Below the pieces are notes generated by a model. The model saw only the letters and a program-made list of their open reading frames with translations, was not told the origin of the DNA and did no database searches. Both the position numbers and the translations under genes were made by a program. 64,000 bases of DNA, from contig NZ_LT629784.1 of the NCBI RefSeq assembly GCF_900105595.1, positions 2,170,001-2,234,000 on the forward strand, in the 5' to 3' direction. This DNA is from Stappia sp. ES.058 (GTDB lineage: Bacteria; Pseudomonadota; Alphaproteobacteria; Rhizobiales; Stappiaceae). Positions 1,130 through 57,932 of the stretch are shown here, in pieces (positions within the stretch are counted from its first letter, which is position 1; every line of letters starts with the position of its first letter).

Positions 1130-2077
1130 TCAGTTGGACTGCAAACGGTCCATCAACGCATCGATGTCGGCGGCGGTGTTGACGGGCGAGCCGGCCATTT
1201 CCTTTGCGATGCGCTTCACCATTCCGCTCAGAACCTTTCCAGTCCCGATCTCGAAAGCGGTGTCGACACCGGCGTCCGCCATCCACGAGACGGATTCGCG
1301 CCAGCGCACGGTTCCGGTCACCTGCTCGACGAGCCGCTGCCGAATGTCGACCGGATCGCTGATCGGCGCGGCCAGCACATTGGCGACAAGGGGCACCGTC
1401 GGCATCTTCATGTCGACGCCGGCCAAAGCCTCCGCCATCACATCCGCGGCGGGCGACATCAAGGAGCAATGGAACGGTGCGCTGACCGGCAGAAGCACGG
1501 CGCGGCGGGCGCCACGGGCCTTGGCGATCTCTATCGCACGCTCGACGGCGGATTTGTGTCCGGAGACGACAACCTGGCCCGGCGCATTGTCATTCGCCGC
1601 CTCGCAGACCTCGCCACCGGCCGCCTCGCGGGCGACCTCGACGGCGGCGTCAAAATCGAGACCGAGCAGCGCCGCCATGGCGCCCTCGCCTACCGGAACC
1701 GCCTTTTGCATCGCATCGCCGCGAACGCGCAGCAGACGGGCAGCATCGGCGACACTCAGGGCACCGGCTGCGGCAAGCGCGGAATATTCGCCCAGCGAAT
1801 GACCTGCGACGAAGGCCACGGACGCCTTGAGATCGAGGCCCCGCGCCTCGATCACGCGCATGGTCGCGAGGCTTACCGCCATCAGCGCCGGCTGTGCATT
1901 GGCTGTTAGCGTGAGATCACTTTCCGGGCCGTTCCACATGGTTTCGCTGAGCTTCTCGCCAAGCGCGTCGTCGACTTCCTGAAAGACGGCCCGCGCCTCG
2001 GCGAACTGCTCCGCCAGGTCACGGCCCATGCCGACCGACTGGCTGCCCTGTCCGGGGAACGTGAAAGCGATGCTCAT
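1130..2077 (-). CDS. fabD: Malonyl CoA-acyl carrier protein transacylase FabD
   Basis: The 315-residue enzyme moves malonyl from CoA to ACP, supplying the extender unit for fatty acid synthesis. It opens with the family signature FTFPGQGSQSVGMG. It contains the nucleophile elbow GHSLGEYSAL, a conserved Arg region, and the catalytic His in SAPFHCSLM. The start at MSIAFTFPGQ is fixed by homology, because the upstream 78 codons of the open frame look non-coding. It is the first gene of the fabD-fabG-acpP cluster and is divergent from rpsF. Confidence 0.97.
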   Translation of the reverse strand: MSIAFTFPGQGSQSVGMGRDLAEQFAEARAVFQEVDDALGEKLSETMWNGPESDLTLTANAQPALMAVSLATMRVIEARGLDLKASVAFVAGHSLGEYSALAAAGALSVADAARLLRVRGDAMQKAVPVGEGAMAALLGLDFDAAVEVAREAAGGEVCEAANDNAPGQVVVSGHKSAVERAIEIAKARGARRAVLLPVSAPFHCSLMSPAADVMAEALAGVDMKMPTVPLVANVLAAPISDPVDIRQRLVEQVTGTVRWRESVSWMADAGVDTAFEIGTGKVLSGMVKRIAKEMAGSPVNTAADIDALMDRLQSN

Positions 2078-2451
2078 CGCGCTGTCTCCACCTTGAGTGT
2101 GCGAAGCAGGAAAACGCGTCTCCGGCTCCGCCTTGTGAGTTGGCCGCAAAGAGACGGTCGCCCGCCTTTCTGTCAAGGTCGGTCGCGAAAAAAACCGCAC
2201 GCTTTGTCCCGCCCGGCTTGCACACGGCTCGAACTGGTGTATAAGCGCCACTTCGTTCGGAACTCTGGCCGGGGGCTGAACGGAAGACCGGACGTCATGT
2301 GGACCTTCCACCCGATGCCCGGCAGGACGGCAAAAGCGTCCGCCTTCCCGTGTCTCCGCCTTCGAAGTTGCTTCGATCCGCCTTTCTTGAAGGCTCGAAG
2401 AGGCTTAGCGCCGTGTTCCGGGGTTTATGAACCTGAAGAAAGGCACAATCC
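2078..2451. promoter_or_regulatory. Divergent intergenic region fabD / rpsF
   Basis: This is a 374-base region between two divergent core operons. The plus-strand half carries a candidate promoter at 2218-2245 and a roughly 200-base leader to rpsF. Small hairpins near the leader end include GGTT-tatg-AACC at about 2423-2434. I see no convincing gene. A leader this long ahead of an S6-S18 operon is where the known S6:S18-binding mRNA motif occurs in other bacteria, but I cannot verify that motif by eye. Confidence 0.5.
2218..2245 (+). promoter_or_regulatory. Candidate sigma70-type promoter for rpsF-rpsR-rplI
   Basis: TTGCAC (2218-2223) and TATAAG (2240-2245) are separated by 16 bases. The -10 matches the consensus at five of six positions and the -35 keeps the conserved TTG. 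It lies about 200 bases before rpsF, in the correct orientation. Confidence 0.5.
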
Positions 2452-5633: not shown

Positions 5634-6563
5634 CTATGCGACGCCGCCGCGCGGACGCCGTTCGCGGCGGTAGAGCGTATCGGTCGTGAAAATCGCCAAC
5701 GACACCCAGATAAGGCCGAAGGTGGCAAGCCGCATCGGCTCGATCTCCTCGCCATAAAGAAAAATCGCGAGGATGAGCTGCAGGCTGGGCGCCATATATT
5801 GCAACAACCCGATCATCGACAGTGGCAAACGACGCGCGCCGGCGGCGAAAAGCGCCAGCGGAAAGGCCGTGACGATCCCCGTGCCGGCGAGCAGAAGCAG
5901 AAGGCCCGGCCGGTCGAGCGGCAGGACATCCTGCTGCAGCCAGATGCCCGAATACATCAGATAGGCAAGCGCGAAGGGCGCGAGCAGGACCGATTCCACC
6001 ATCAGGCCCGGCGACGCCCCGACCGCCACCATCTTGCGCAGATAGCCGTAGGTCGCGAAGGAAAAGGCCAGCCCCACCGACACCCAGGGAAAAGCGTCGA
6101 GCGCCACCGCCTGGATCGCGACGGCCAGCGCGGCAATGGCAATGGCGACCGCCTGCCAGCGACTGAGCTTTTCCTTCAGGACGATCAGGCCGATGGCGAC
6201 CGAGACCAGCGGATTGCAAAAATATCCGAAACTGATCTCGATGATCCGATTTTCGGTCACCGCCCAGATGAACACCAGCCAATTGACCGAGATCACCGCC
6301 GCAGACAGCGCCAGCATCGGCAGGCGCTTGCGGTCGAGGAGCGCATCGCGCACCTCGCCCAGCCGCCCGCGCAGCCCGAGAAAGATCCCCAGAAAAACCA
6401 CCGACCACAGGATCCGATGAGAGACCACGACATCGGCATCGACGGCCGCGGTCCATTTGTAGTAGGCGGGCAGAACCCCCCAAAGAAAAAAGGCCGTCAA
6501 CGCGAAGACGAGACCGAGGCGGCGCTCGGCGTCTTCCGCCTCGACCGGTTGGGGAAGGCTCAT
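5634..6563 (-). CDS. rarD: RarD-type EamA transporter
   Basis: The 309-residue inner-membrane protein has about ten hydrophobic helices in two EamA repeats. FFLWGVLPAYYKW at the first helix, SHRILWS, NWLVFIWAV and the late YMAPSLQLILAIFLYGE segment are characteristic of RarD (chloramphenicol-sensitive protein family). The transported substrate is unknown. It lies 27 bases after the citramalate synthase gene on the same strand, so the two may be cotranscribed, possibly for amino acid or metabolite export. Confidence 0.88.
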   Translation of the reverse strand: MSLPQPVEAEDAERRLGLVFALTAFFLWGVLPAYYKWTAAVDADVVVSHRILWSVVFLGIFLGLRGRLGEVRDALLDRKRLPMLALSAAVISVNWLVFIWAVTENRIIEISFGYFCNPLVSVAIGLIVLKEKLSRWQAVAIAIAALAVAIQAVALDAFPWVSVGLAFSFATYGYLRKMVAVGASPGLMVESVLLAPFALAYLMYSGIWLQQDVLPLDRPGLLLLLAGTGIVTAFPLALFAAGARRLPLSMIGLLQYMAPSLQLILAIFLYGEEIEPMRLATFGLIWVSLAIFTTDTLYRRERRPRGGVA

Positions 6564-53696: not shown

Positions 53697-54509
53697 ATGG
53701 AAAGACACGCGCCAGGAACGAGCGAACCTTCCCAGGCCCCACAGCCCCGGCGGGGGCCTGGCGCTGGCGTGGCACTGCGCTCGTTCGCGTTCCTGGGCCT
53801 GGTGTTGACGACCCTCGCACTGTTCGCGCCGTTCACCGTCTTGCTTGCACTGCCGCGCAACTGGTGTCTGGCTGTCGTCACGCGCCTGCTGCGCTTCTGG
53901 CTGTGGGCACTGGAGGCGCTGACCGGGCTTTCCTATGAAGTACGCGGCCGCGAAAACCTGCCGTCGACCCCGTGCCTGATCGCTTCAAAGCACCAGTCCG
54001 CATTCGAGACCGTCGCTCTTCAGGTCATCCTGCAGGATCCGGCATTCGTGCTGAAACGGGAACTGACGCTTATTCCGGTGGCGGGCTGGACCATGTGGCG
54101 GCTGGGGCATATCGGTATCAACCGGGCGGCCGGCGCGGCAGCATTGATGGACCTCATGCGCAAGGCCCGCAAGAGGCTCAACGAAGGCCGTTGTGTCGTG
54201 ATCTTTCCCGAAGGCACCCGCTCTGCTCCGCTGGCCGCATCCAAATACAAGCCCGGCGTCGTGGCCCTCTACCGCTCCCTCAAAGTCCCCTGTGTTCCGG
54301 TTGCGCTGAATTCCGGCGTTTTCTGGCCGCGCCGCTGCCTGTGGCGGTATCCGGGTCGCATTGTCATTGAAATCCTGCCGCAGATCGCACCCGGTCTCGA
54401 TGCAAAGACGTTTGAGGTGCGGCTGCAAGACGCAATCGAAAGCCGGAGCGCGGAGCTCGCACACAGTGCCGACCCCTCCCTGCCCGGGAATACGGCCGGC
54501 CCCGGGTGA
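53697..54509 (+). CDS. plsC: 1-acyl-sn-glycerol-3-phosphate acyltransferase
   Basis: The 270-residue membrane enzyme acylates lysophosphatidic acid in phospholipid synthesis. A hydrophobic helix (about residues 28-55) anchors it. SKHQSAFETV holds the H-X4-acidic catalytic pair (HQSAFE) near residue 98. FVLKRELTLIPVAGW, GINRA and IFPEGTRSAP complete the acyltransferase motifs. The residue after the four-residue spacer is Glu rather than the usual Asp. It follows the FAH gene on the same strand and is convergent with the Frag1/DRAM-like gene. Confidence 0.93.
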   Translation: MERHAPGTSEPSQAPQPRRGPGAGVALRSFAFLGLVLTTLALFAPFTVLLALPRNWCLAVVTRLLRFWLWALEALTGLSYEVRGRENLPSTPCLIASKHQSAFETVALQVILQDPAFVLKRELTLIPVAGWTMWRLGHIGINRAAGAAALMDLMRKARKRLNEGRCVVIFPEGTRSAPLAASKYKPGVVALYRSLKVPCVPVALNSGVFWPRRCLWRYPGRIVIEILPQIAPGLDAKTFEVRLQDAIESRSAELAHSADPSLPGNTAGPG

Positions 54510-54525
54510 CCCGCGACCGCGTATT

Positions 54526-55320
54526 CTATCGGCTTGCGGCCTGCGCGGATGCGCGAACGGCATGGAATGAACGGCCGATTGCGAAGATATCCGGGGCGAA
54601 AAGTGCAAGATAGACAGTGAATGCGGAGATGGTGAAGATCTCTTGCACCGTATAGATGTAGTAAATCGTGTATTCCGAAATCGGCAACTCGATGCCCTTG
54701 ATGGCAAAAAGGCAGAGATAAAGGGCGGCCATGAACGCCACGGTCAGCGCGGCGCGGGCGCGAATCCGGCTCATGCGCGGAAGCAGCGCGAACGGTGCGA
54801 CTGCCTCAAGAGGGGACGACTTGGCAAGGCGCGCGCATAAGAATCCGCTCATCGCGATTGCCCCGCCCTGCCCGACAAAGAACACGTAGCTGCCCAGCAT
54901 GTGGAGGTCGTGGTCGTTCGCGAAGGTGAATTGCGTGCAGACAACCATTCCGGCGCTGCCGATGATCTGCAGCGCAAGCGCGAGCCAGACGCGGGCGATC
55001 AGGGCGCGCCTCATCGCCGGATCATGAGCGAAACGGATCTCGATCGCGGTTCGGTACCCGCAGAAGATCGGAACAAGCGCAAACAGCACCACCGCCGTCA
55101 CTGCGAGAATCATCATCGCGAAAGGCCCTCCGATGGCGGGATCGGAAATTGCACGGCTAATGGTTGGGGCGCTATGCTGGACGTAGTCGGGGTGGCGCTG
55201 ATAAAAGGTCCAGCGAGCCCAGATCATCATTGGAATTTGAAACAGGGGAATGGCGACGATCGGCGCGCTGAGCAACAACCCGAGAAGAGCACCTTCGCTT
55301 GTTTCGTCACGTCGTGACAT
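54526..55320 (-). CDS. Six-helix membrane protein, Frag1/DRAM/Sfk1-like
   Basis: The 264-residue protein has six hydrophobic helices (about 12-34, 63-88, 108-128, 138-160, 187-206 and 218-245). The SAPTISRAISDP loop, the FANDHDLHMLGSYVFFVGQG segment and the C-terminal YIYTVQEIFTISAFTVYLALF resemble the Frag1/DRAM/Sfk1 family, whose eukaryotic members affect lipid and autophagy processes. Bacterial function is unknown. An AAGGA site precedes the ATG. It is divergent from the ACP-ketosynthase operon. Confidence 0.6.
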   Translation of the reverse strand: MSRRDETSEGALLGLLLSAPIVAIPLFQIPMMIWARWTFYQRHPDYVQHSAPTISRAISDPAIGGPFAMMILAVTAVVLFALVPIFCGYRTAIEIRFAHDPAMRRALIARVWLALALQIIGSAGMVVCTQFTFANDHDLHMLGSYVFFVGQGGAIAMSGFLCARLAKSSPLEAVAPFALLPRMSRIRARAALTVAFMAALYLCLFAIKGIELPISEYTIYYIYTVQEIFTISAFTVYLALFAPDIFAIGRSFHAVRASAQAASR

Positions 55321-55609
55321 CCTCGTTCCTTCCCCACATTCGAGACAGCCCGGTTCTCATGCCGCATGCCGCGACCAAACATCCAGTCACCAAATTGTCG
55401 CCCTGCCTGTGGTGCAGACTGGCAAGGATGACTTTGAATAGCGGACGAAACAACACAATGACAAGGCTTCTCGACAGGGCTTTCTGCCAGCGATCCGCCG
55501 GAAAATCTTTATCGATCACCGGTTTTGTGGAAATTCGTTCTGGAACCGGGGCGCGCGACCTTTTATGACAGCCGAAAAGATATCGGATCACCAGGGAACA
55601 AGGCACGAG

Positions 55610-55882
55610 ATGGAACAGATGGCCGAAGGGATTGACCCCGCGACGCTCGATCGCTTGCTGGATCTCGTCGCGAAAGAGGGAATGGTCGAGCGTGAGAAGC
55701 TTAAGCCGGACGCAACATTCGAAGAACTCGGCATCCAGTCCGCTGACATGGTTGTGGTCCTGATGGCGATTGAAGAGGAATTCGGCGTCTATATTCCCGT
55801 GGACGGCGATCTGGCCGATGCGGAAACAGTGGGAGACTTCTTGAAGGTTCTGGCGGCTCGCATGAAGGAAGATGCCGCGTGA
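55610..55882 (+). CDS. Specialised acyl carrier protein
   Basis: The 90-residue protein has the ACP fold pattern. The phosphopantetheine serine is probably S44 in ELGIQSADMVVVLMAIEEEF, where the usual DSL is QSA. ATG 55610 has an AAGG site six bases before it; an ATG at 55565 would add 15 residues without a ribosome site. It is clearly distinct from the housekeeping ACP at the left window edge. Its stop overlaps the GTG of the ketosynthase (GTGA), the first of three overlaps or very tight joins in this operon. Confidence 0.88.
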   Translation: MEQMAEGIDPATLDRLLDLVAKEGMVEREKLKPDATFEELGIQSADMVVVLMAIEEEFGVYIPVDGDLADAETVGDFLKVLAARMKEDAA

Positions 55883-57099
55883 CAAGCAAGACACGCCGCG
55901 TTGTCGTCACCGGCATGGGGGCGATTACCGCAACAGGACATGGCGTTGAAAGCCTTTGGACCGCCGCGCGCGACGGGCGCACCGGCGTATCCGAGTTTCT
56001 GCTCGATCGCTACCCGCGCCAGCGGATTACCAAGGCTGCCCACATCAAGGGGTTTGAGCCGGCGGAGCACCTGACGCTTCAGGAGCTCAAGACGACAGAC
56101 CGGTTCGCGCAGCTTGCGCTTGTCGCGGCAGAAGAAGCGTTGCAAAGCGCAGGCATCGACACCAAGACCCCGCGCGGAGCGCGCACCGGCGCCATAATCG
56201 GGTCAGGTATCGGCGGCGCGTGGACAACCGACAACGGTAACTACAGCTTCTACGTCACCCATGAACGCCCCGACCTGATGTCGATCGCCAAGGTGATGCC
56301 GAACGCGGCCGCCTCCCAGATCAGCATGCGCTACGGAATTCGCGGCCCATCGCTTGCCATTTCGAGCGCTTGCGCCTCCGGCACCCAGGCGGTCGGCTAC
56401 GGATTGCAGATGATACGCGCCGGCATTATTGACGCGGCGGTCGTCGGCGGCAGCGAAGCATTGCTCACCCCCTCGACCTTCCGCGCATGGGAAGTTCTGC
56501 GCGTGATGGCGCCAGAGGCCTGCCGTCCCTTCTCCGAAAAGCGCAACGGCATGGTGCTTGGCGAAGGCGCGGCCGTCTTGATGATCGAGGAACTGGAGCA
56601 TGCGCTCGCCCGTGGTGCGACCCCTCTCGCCGAAATTGCCGGCTATGGCACCACCTCCGATGCGGGCGATCTCCTGCGTCCGACTGTCGAAGGCCCGGCC
56701 GGATCGATGAATGCAGCGCTCGAGGACGCCGGCCTGTCACCGGACGAGATCGGTTATGTGAATGCCCATGGCACGGGAACGATCCTGAACGACATTTCCG
56801 AAACCTGCGCTCTGAGACAGGTGTTCGGCGACCGACTGTCATCCTTGTCCGTTTCCTCCACCAAGCCGATCCACGGCCATGCGCTGGGCGCGGCTGGTGC
56901 CATCGAACTTGTGGTGACCGTGGAAGCCCTGCGTGCCCAGATCGCGCCGCCGACGATCAACTGGCTGGGCCCCGATCCCAAGTGCGACCTCGATCCCGTT
57001 CCGAACGAAGCGCGCGCGCATCCGATTTCGGCTGCGCTCAGCAACTCGTTCGCCTTCGGCGGCATCAATGCCACGCTGGCATTGCGCAAATACGACTGA
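55879..57099 (+). CDS. Beta-ketoacyl-ACP synthase (KAS II-like)
   Basis: The 406-residue condensing enzyme extends acyl chains with malonyl-ACP. The catalytic Cys is C165 in AISSACASGTQ, with H297 in NAHGTGTILND and H332 in KPIHGHALGAAG. All three active-site residues are intact, so it is not a chain-length factor. The start is GTG, overlapping the ACP stop. It is a FabF-type enzyme dedicated to the adjacent ACP and dehydratase subunits rather than to housekeeping synthesis, by context. Confidence 0.93.
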   Translation: MTSKTRRVVVTGMGAITATGHGVESLWTAARDGRTGVSEFLLDRYPRQRITKAAHIKGFEPAEHLTLQELKTTDRFAQLALVAAEEALQSAGIDTKTPRGARTGAIIGSGIGGAWTTDNGNYSFYVTHERPDLMSIAKVMPNAAASQISMRYGIRGPSLAISSACASGTQAVGYGLQMIRAGIIDAAVVGGSEALLTPSTFRAWEVLRVMAPEACRPFSEKRNGMVLGEGAAVLMIEELEHALARGATPLAEIAGYGTTSDAGDLLRPTVEGPAGSMNAALEDAGLSPDEIGYVNAHGTGTILNDISETCALRQVFGDRLSSLSVSSTKPIHGHALGAAGAIELVVTVEALRAQIAPPTINWLGPDPKCDLDPVPNEARAHPISAALSNSFAFGGINATLALRKYD

Positions 57100-57109
57100 C
57101 GAGGTCAAC

Positions 57110-57535
57110 GTGTCACAAGGGCCCGCACCGAATTGGATCGCTTTGCCTGATGCGGTGCTCGACACAGCATCGGCTAAGGTCGATGCTTTTGCACGGGCGC
57201 TCGCCGGTGGATCTCCGGCGACGTTTCCAGCCGGACATGTGCCGGCGACCTACGCCTTCACCGTTTTCGCCGGGGCTGAGTCGGGCGGGCGGATAGAGGC
57301 AATCGCGCGCGAGCGCGGGGCCATGCTGGTTCACCAGGCGCAGGCATTCACCTATCACGCGCCGCTTGAACGCGACCGGCTCTACGCGGTCTCTCTCGAC
57401 TGGCACGCCAATCCCGAACGTGACGACCGGCTCGTCCTACGCGGCCGTGTCCACGACGGGGACGGCCCGCTCCTGCAGGAGTTCACCGCCGAGATCGTCC
57501 TTTTTGTGAACCGCAAAGAGCCGGCGCATGGCTGA
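57110..57535 (+). CDS. Hotdog-fold dehydratase subunit, HadA-like (MaoC N-terminal type)
   Basis: The 141-residue protein resembles the MaoC dehydratase N-terminal domain. PATYAFTVFAG then LVHQAQAFTYHAPLERDRLYA, and a late LQEFTAEIVLFVNR, fit the non-catalytic half of heterodimeric dehydratases. It has no D-x4-H dyad, so it should need a catalytic partner, the next gene, whose ATG lies inside its last codons (8-base overlap). The start is GTG with a GAGG site. It is 10 bases after the ketosynthase stop. Confidence 0.78.
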   Translation: MSQGPAPNWIALPDAVLDTASAKVDAFARALAGGSPATFPAGHVPATYAFTVFAGAESGGRIEAIARERGAMLVHQAQAFTYHAPLERDRLYAVSLDWHANPERDDRLVLRGRVHDGDGPLLQEFTAEIVLFVNRKEPAHG

Positions 57536-57932
57536 CGCCGGACCCGTTTTTACGGTCGGGGACCGTTTGCTTTCTGGAAATGCGCGCCACCTTCCAGCCC
57601 GTGACATCGAGGCATACGCAGACGCCTCAGGAGACCGCAACCCGATCCATCTCGACGACAGCGCCGCACAAGGCGTCGGCCTGCCCGGCTCTATCGTGCA
57701 TGGCATGCTGGTGATGGGCCAGTTCGAGGCGGCACTGTGCGCCTGGCGAGCGGGACTGACAATCCAGACCCTGCAGACCCGTTTCCTGAGACCGCTCCCT
57801 GTCGGCGCGACCATCCATGTCGAGGGGCGCATCGCCAAGGTACTCGACGCCCGTTCCGCGATTGTCCGGCTTAGTGTGCGCGATGACGAAGGCCACACGA
57901 TCTGCGTCGGCGACGCCACCGTCTCGGTTTGA
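57528..57932 (+). CDS. MaoC-type dehydratase/hydratase subunit, HadB-like
   Basis: The 134-residue single-hotdog protein has the hydratase-2 motif YADASGDRNPIHLDDSAA with the catalytic Asp36 and His41 pair (D-x4-H), then GLPGSIVHGMLVMGQ. It would dehydrate 3-hydroxyacyl-ACP, acting with the preceding non-catalytic subunit as in mycobacterial HadA/HadB. It ends the operon; the next gene is convergent. No ketoreductase or enoyl reductase is included, so these steps must be borrowed from housekeeping FabG/FabI or be absent. Confidence 0.88.
   Translation: MADAGPVFTVGDRLLSGNARHLPARDIEAYADASGDRNPIHLDDSAAQGVGLPGSIVHGMLVMGQFEAALCAWRAGLTIQTLQTRFLRPLPVGATIHVEGRIAKVLDARSAIVRLSVRDDEGHTICVGDATVSV

Follow-up and report, generated by a model that had tools for sequence, protein, structure and literature searches.

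A conserved ACP-ketosynthase-hotdog cassette in Stappia sp. ES.058, a putative elongation module for special acyl chains of membrane lipids

Introduction

The described systems closest to the gene cassette analyzed here are the NodF/NodE pair, the mycobacterial HadAB/HadBC dehydratases, the AcpXL/FabFXL system and two routes supplying acyl chains to bacterial sphingolipids. The cassette consists of four genes for an acyl carrier protein (ACP), a ketosynthase (KS) and two hotdog proteins, HD1 and HD2, at positions 55610 to 57932 on the plus strand of a 64,000-nucleotide stretch (the window) from Stappia sp. ES.058 (contig NZ_LT629784.1, positions 2,170,001 to 2,234,000), whose genome, G000, is a single contig of 4,626,154 bases. 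As in NodF/NodE, an ACP gene is followed by that of a FabF-type KS with no reductase in between, the ACP is private and the KS carries an H332-x-H334 signature, but the cassette has a KS clade of its own and two hotdog genes, and there are no nod genes among its scanned neighbours. With HadAB/HadBC it shares adjacent hotdog genes of which one has the D-x4-H dyad and the other does not, whereas its proteins score far below the HadA and HadB cut-offs and are tied to a KS and an ACP in Gram-negative bacteria. AcpXL/FabFXL also combines a private ACP with a KS, but these fall in clades separate from those of the cassette.

For Rhodobacteria, the acyl supply of sphingolipids described in the excerpts of PMC9386255 depends on AasR, which salvages free fatty acids and loads them onto AcpR, with acpR directly before spt, the gene for serine palmitoyltransferase (SPT), in one operon; the same excerpts present YghO of E. 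coli BL21 as the enzyme presumed to act as acyl-CoA N-acyltransferase in the synthesis of dihydroceramide. Relatives of the cassette outside Stappia resemble this route in bringing together a specialised ACP and SPT-like, YghO-type and LptF/G-like genes. The cassette differs in that a KS and a dehydratase would build the chain, that no relative of AasR was seen among the cassette-locus genes compared, and that no oxoamine synthase (AONS) gene adjoins it within the window. In the synthesis of sphinganines by SgaA/SgaB (excerpts of PMC12134224) a dedicated chain builder likewise feeds an oxoamine synthase, but SgaA is a type I polyketide synthase (PKS) and the cassette a type II set.

We propose that the cassette serves as a dedicated elongation module of type II, whose dehydratase is HadAB-like and whose private ACP carries a special acyl chain destined for a membrane lipid of sphingolipid type or of a related kind; we put the probability of this reading at roughly 0.58. 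An earlier note, made from the letters of the window, had described the locus as an orphan elongation system. What it observed was confirmed, while its interpretation was supported in part.

Results and discussion

Layout of the operon

The four genes form a tight operon. The ACP (55610..55882, 90 residues, motif LGIQSAD) matches PF00550 with 40.1 bits, and the FabF-type, NodE-like KS (55879..57099, 406 residues) matches PF00109 and PF02801 with 182.2 and 108.6 bits. HD1 (57110..57535, 141 residues) is a HadA/HadC-like, non-catalytic hotdog protein with a VHQAQ motif, and HD2 (57528..57932, 134 residues) is a dehydratase of MaoC/HadB type (PF01575, 67.9 bits). The ACP gene shares 4 nt with that of the KS and HD1 shares 8 nt with HD2, while 10 nt lie between KS and HD1, in line with the tight joining noted earlier. 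GTG is the start codon of both KS and HD1. For the ACP a longer open reading frame (ORF) starts at 55565, but we favour position 55610 because two of the 14 Stappia loci (L013 and L019) have an in-frame stop inside the extension.

Conservation and distribution of the cassette

HD1 was used as the most specific marker of the cassette. The first look scored at most 46 candidates per genome in Stappiaceae and at most 10 in the order, class and phylum searches, so that some carriers may have been missed. Among 87 Stappiaceae genomes HD1 was found in 14, comprising all 14 Stappia and none of the 73 others, and the order search found it in 20 of 397 Hyphomicrobiales genomes. Five of these are Stappia; the other 15 are spread over five families (ten in one genus of family f20, two in f42, and one each in f38, f49 and f50). 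The order ACP-KS-HD1-HD2 is kept in 14/14 Stappia genomes and in all 15 of these other genomes (in the draft locus L129 the KS is split), so the set is beyond chance, and the search for it that the earlier note had called for thereby removes the label "orphan".

HD1 matches were obtained in 5 of 385 genomes in the class search and 12 of 398 in the phylum search. Of 12 further stretches from these searches only G1026, which belongs to an order other than Hyphomicrobiales, carries the cassette; the remaining 11, with weak HD1 matches, were taken as ordinary MaoC-type proteins because no KS or ACP was seen, although for L125 among them, at the end of a contig, no judgement is possible. A search of plasmids with HD1 gave no match. 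We found no description of the cassette in print, but only open-access literature was covered and absence there proves little. A separate observation concerns genome G794, where a YghO-type gene lies approximately 5 kb from HD1- and HD2-like domains joined in one 634-residue ORF (L114:1-966 and 5906-6525); neither KS nor ACP was found at that locus.

Ketosynthase and ACP

The earlier note had called the KS intact with C165, H297 and H332. C165 and H297 are indeed kept in 29/29 cassette KS rows, but H332 had been miscounted: the second catalytic histidine is H334 (GHALGA), invariant in all 14 Stappia KS. H332 is an additional histidine, present in 29/29 cassette rows, 7/7 NodE and 6/7 other ACP-KS pairs, and in 0/10 FabF, 0/9 AcpXL-cluster (three of them gaps) and 0/1 FabB rows. 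The divergence claimed for the ACP, QSA instead of DSL, holds throughout the genus, since the Asp before the carrier serine is replaced by Q in 13 and by E in one of the 14 Stappia genomes, and of the 25 cassette ACP rows compared, 24 have a residue other than Asp at this place. This is not unique to the cassette, because it is also seen in 3/7 NodF rows and in BL21 AcpR. Across the 14 Stappia genomes the KS is 77-90% and the ACP 80-100% identical.

A KS tree was built from 58 rows, after seven of 65 (four near-identical Stappia and three partial AcpXL-cluster rows) had been dropped; L129, with its KS in two ORFs, was left out, and the rows L042 and L168 were named NodE by clade and not by adjoining nodABC genes. 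It is clear from this tree that the cassette KS form a single clade (25 rows, support 100/100). NodE forms a separate clade (100/100), joined by ACP-KS pairs of Xanthomonas sacchari and Pseudorhodobacter, and the branch that unites the NodE side with the cassette has a support of 83/0. Five full-length AcpXL-cluster KS group apart (100/100), and a sixth, placed elsewhere, has a very long branch. Many forks are weak in the ACP tree, which has 53 rows and 91 columns and takes in 11 of the 16 non-Stappia cassette ACPs; one of its rows, L028, is labelled AcpP but is the ACP of a pair. It recovers groups of cassette ACPs (89/84), NodF (95/91) and AcpXL (100/99).

A plain housekeeping FabF was rejected as identity of the KS on account of its separate position in the tree, though a general FabF subfamily cut-off is passed; the FabF equivalog model is missed (416.6 bits against a cut-off of 493.75). 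A plain NodFE system was likewise rejected, as the cassette KS has its own clade. A NodFE-like function, in which enoyl reduction is skipped and trans-2 polyunsaturated chains are made for a lipid or a signal, is a weaker claim that we still regard as improbable. The sharing of H332 with NodE fits it, and among the 40 of 1297 plasmid matches listed most are rhizobial KS genes of 44-46% identity, the match in Rhizobium leguminosarum being a nodF-nodE pair beside nodABC. But the KS lies outside the NodE clade, the joint branch reaching 83/0 only, and no nod genes occur among the nine proteins scanned, four of which are the operon itself. The operon does lack an enoyl reductase, as this function would have it, yet a gene missing from an operon says little. 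The MaoC gene of the R. leguminosarum nod cluster, presumably nodN, is only 21% identical to HD2.

Two plasmid-borne NodE-like pairs have settings of their own. In Pseudorhodobacter turbinis (L040:4584-7209) a gene that we take from its sequence to be LpxD-like lies directly before the ACP and the KS, and in Xanthomonas sacchari (L039:6238-12756) the pair, with 51% KS identity, lies among aminotransferase, arginase-family and GNAT genes.

The trees also led us to reject an AcpXL/lipid A system, in agreement with the earlier note, which had set the locus apart from it. That the cassette might instead replace a missing AcpXL pathway and supply a very long chain to lipid A was suggested by the genome content: no ACP of AcpXL type over cut-off occurs in G000 (the cassette ACP reaches 31.6 of 83 bits with PRK06508, which we take to be the model for this type), whereas such an ACP was found in 9 of 41 Hyphomicrobiales genomes sampled. 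We consider this very improbable, since neither the KS nor the ACP comes near the AcpXL-cluster groups in the trees and none of the scanned neighbours matched a lipid A acyltransferase family.

The two hotdog proteins

The dyad that the earlier note had assigned to the second hotdog protein only, D36-x4-H41, is found in HD2 of all 14 Stappia rows and in 19/19 rows of a wider alignment, and HD1 is without it. In HD1 the VHQAQ motif is invariant within Stappia; outside the genus it is relaxed, one Q being kept throughout and the H almost throughout. The top NCBIfam matches of HD2 are fused HadA/HadB and HadB models (NF040620 and NF010246), all below cut-off, with 51 of 203 bits for HadB and 20.5 of 180 bits for HadA, and among its PDB matches are 4rv2, a MaoC family protein, and 5zy8, which is HadB. 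HD1 of the window has no Pfam and no NCBIfam match, and only two of 14 HD1 relatives touch PF13452 (best E 0.0069). Its profile nevertheless aligns with that of HD2 at 94% probability over 109 columns (hhalign), and its top PDB match, weak at E=0.22 and over the hotdog core, is mycobacterial Rv0637, presumably HadC. AlphaFold2 modelling of HD1 from 19 sequences (mean pLDDT 89.3, pTM 0.81) gave an order of helix and strands that fits a hotdog fold, and in G1026 HD1 and HD2 are fused into one cassette gene. These data are in line with the HadA/HadB-like layout suggested earlier and fit a HadAB-type pair in which HD1 and HD2 would form a complex.

Lipid genes around the cassette in relatives

A context that the earlier note had overlooked appears in the relatives. 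Genes of sphingolipid type occur near the cassette in four of the six other families, SPT-like ones in three and YghO relatives in four. In f20 an AONS gene is found within approximately 2 kb of HD2 in 10/10 genomes, tail to tail with HD2 at a distance of at most 50 bases in L084, L086 and L092 and of 1.5-1.6 kb in L089 and L091; the f50 genome and one of the two f42 genomes likewise have an SPT-like AONS gene near the cassette. Six f20 AONS are 40-43% identical to E. coli BL21 Spt, and that of f50 44%. The f20 loci further contain a KdsR-like SDR (266 bits, cut-off 400), LptF/LptG-like and DUF4833 genes and, in two genomes, a desaturase; LptF/LptG paralogues also occur in the BL21 spt cluster. 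Genes 34-36% identical to BL21 YghO over approximately 375 residues are present in f20 (in the one genome covered widely), f42 (one of two), f49 and f50, and in f49 and f50 they lie directly upstream of the ACP, ending within about 25 bases of its start. Both f42 genomes have GT21- and GT2-type glycosyltransferases after HD2.

The f38 genome, G123, instead has PlsC-family and Frag1 genes beside the cassette (44% and 32% identical to those of Stappia), together with a CDP-alcohol transferase, two LptF/G-like genes and a desaturase that matches sphingolipid Delta4-desaturases below threshold (20.3 of 23 bits), and a relative of its PlsC gene stands beside the cassette in G1026. Within the cassette KS clade the PlsC lineages (Stappia, G123 and G1026) stand on one side and the YghO lineages on the other (96/86 versus 92/80), which suggests that the acceptor enzyme may have been exchanged. 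BL21 AasR gave no match at E 0.01 among the called cassette-locus genes (L126, L127, L129 and L130 excepted). Elsewhere in Hyphomicrobiales, ACP-KS pairs devoid of hotdog genes (L156, L158, L159 and L160) lie near ligases 25-26% identical to BL21 AasR.

Since the setting in relatives consists of membrane-lipid genes, of ceramide type in four of the six other families, we read the cassette as supplying such lipids with a special acyl-ACP; our confidence in this is moderate for the cassette family and lower for Stappia itself.

Proposed pathway

In the pathway that we envisage, the apo-ACP would receive 4'-phosphopantetheine on the serine of QSA; two AcpS/Sfp-type phosphopantetheinyl transferase genes are present in G000, neither of them close to the cassette. 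The KS would then extend an acyl thioester on its private ACP with malonyl units, and the 3-keto group would be reduced by housekeeping FabG. The operon contains no such gene, but FabG should be available in the cell because fab genes lie at the left window edge: FabF just beyond it (G000:2168513-2169766), an AcpP-type ACP across it (G000:2169895-2170065), and ORFs that we take from their sequence to be FabD- and FabG-like at window positions 1130-2311 and within 348-1469. A HadAB-like heterodimer would dehydrate the product, HD2 providing the D-H dyad and HD1 the half that binds the chain, after which a housekeeping enoyl reductase would saturate the chain or be skipped. In one half of the family the recipient of the finished acyl-ACP could be a neighbouring YghO-type enzyme, a presumptive ceramide N-acyltransferase, and in Stappia and related lineages a neighbouring PlsC-type enzyme; alternatively, the SPT-like oxoamine synthase could take it up itself. 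The product would be a sphingolipid-type or related polar membrane lipid.

If so, a private module would explain sphingolipid-type synthesis without AasR in some Hyphomicrobiales, and a HadAB-type dehydratase would be coupled to a NodE-like KS in Gram-negative bacteria. The more specific proposal of a previously undescribed de novo route, in which a HadAB-containing type II system makes a special, perhaps unsaturated, chain for bacterial ceramides in place of AasR salvage and the YghO or PlsC acceptor is swapped along the family tree, is possible but must be regarded as tentative.

The cassette in Stappia

The earlier note had stated that no reductase, thioesterase or acyltransferase is encoded in the operon, which is true of the four genes themselves, but a PlsC-family (LPAAT) gene (53697..54509, plus strand; PF01553, 87.6 bits), the candidate acceptor enzyme, lies upstream of the cassette in the window as in 12/12 Stappia genomes with a long enough locus, two loci being too short. 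Between them a syntenic Frag1/DRAM/Sfk1-family membrane protein is encoded on the minus strand (54526..55320; PF10277, 40.9 bits), and a Frag1 gene is found beside the cassette in 13/14 Stappia genomes. In G008 (L014) it was not found, and PlsC is directly upstream of the ACP. As to lipids of the genus, excerpts of PMC8319176 state that the sulfur aminolipid SAL is absent from Stappia stellulata.

Several observations weigh against a role in sphingolipid synthesis, in particular for Stappia. No sphingolipid gene adjoins the cassette in this genus, where roughly 1 Mb separates it from the AONS locus; in none of the 14 genomes does an AONS reach the SPT cut-off (best 287.8 of 500 bits), and the one at that locus scores best as bioF (314.5 of 426 bits). 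No YghO relative was found in the 14 Stappia genomes in a search that had no positive control, and the literature matches listed include no report of Stappia sphingolipids. Among the relatives, the two f20 AONS tested stay below the SPT cut-off with 458 and 470 of 500 bits, the stretches around the cassette in f38, f49, G316 (one of the f42 genomes) and G1026 have no AONS, and that of G316 has neither YghO nor PlsC relatives. The cassette ACP is linked to SPT or YghO by neighbourhood only, the position of BL21 AcpR next to the cassette group in the ACP tree (94/69) depends on a long branch, and with 405.6 bits the KS exceeds the cut-off (387) of the general FabF subfamily model, NF005589.

These points leave room for the alternative that the cassette makes an unusual chain for a glycerophospholipid through the adjacent PlsC-type enzyme, sphingolipids not being involved in Stappia. 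The PlsC-family gene beside the cassette in all checkable Stappia, in G123 and, by similarity, in G1026 would be expected from it, as would the CDP-alcohol transferase of G123, and with five PlsC-family genes in G000 the one next to the cassette may be specialised. We nevertheless hold it to be unlikely, given that the neighbour in four other families is a YghO-type N-acyltransferase, accompanied in three of them by SPT-like genes. In the proposed route to a sphingolipid-type or related lipid, PlsC would presumably stand in for YghO in Stappia.

Oxoamine synthase loci and the polyketide alternative

The separate AONS locus of Stappia (L171, G000:3223000-3238970) encodes a protein 54% identical to the f42 AONS, together with DUF4833, LptF/G, CTP and NTP transferases, a CDP-alcohol transferase, a GT4 enzyme and an inositol-phosphate synthase-type protein (395.7 of 638 bits). 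The GT4, CDP-alcohol transferase, NTP transferase, LptF/G and DUF4833 genes have relatives in the cassette region of G123. The locus also has phosphonate genes, namely a phosphoenolpyruvate (PEP) mutase over cut-off, a TPP enzyme and a class V aminotransferase, and beside the oxoamine synthase these may possibly mark a phosphonosphingolipid locus. Within L171:10921-15969 (G000:C1 ~3233900-3239000) the PEP mutase is fused to an NTP transferase, and a PhyH gene lies beside the AONS.

The cassette could also be thought to belong to a secondary-metabolite pathway for a polyketide or polyene. It is a type II KS-ACP-dehydratase set, an EamA transporter gene adjoins it on the opposite strand in 3/14 Stappia, and a second oxoamine synthase is found beside a type I PKS elsewhere in G000. 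Aryl polyene clusters have dual KS, ammonia lyase and outer-membrane genes. However, the cassette is present in every Stappia genome with the KS and ACP conserved as given above, its neighbours in relatives are lipid genes and no tailoring genes were seen among the neighbours scanned, which makes this explanation hardly credible. The second oxoamine synthase gene abuts a PKS gene of 2555 codons at G000:C1 ~1233900-1243000 (L170:7434-16498), the layout of the SgaA/SgaB sphinganine cluster, and in other Stappia genomes, too, AONS and PKS matches are found 8 kb apart.

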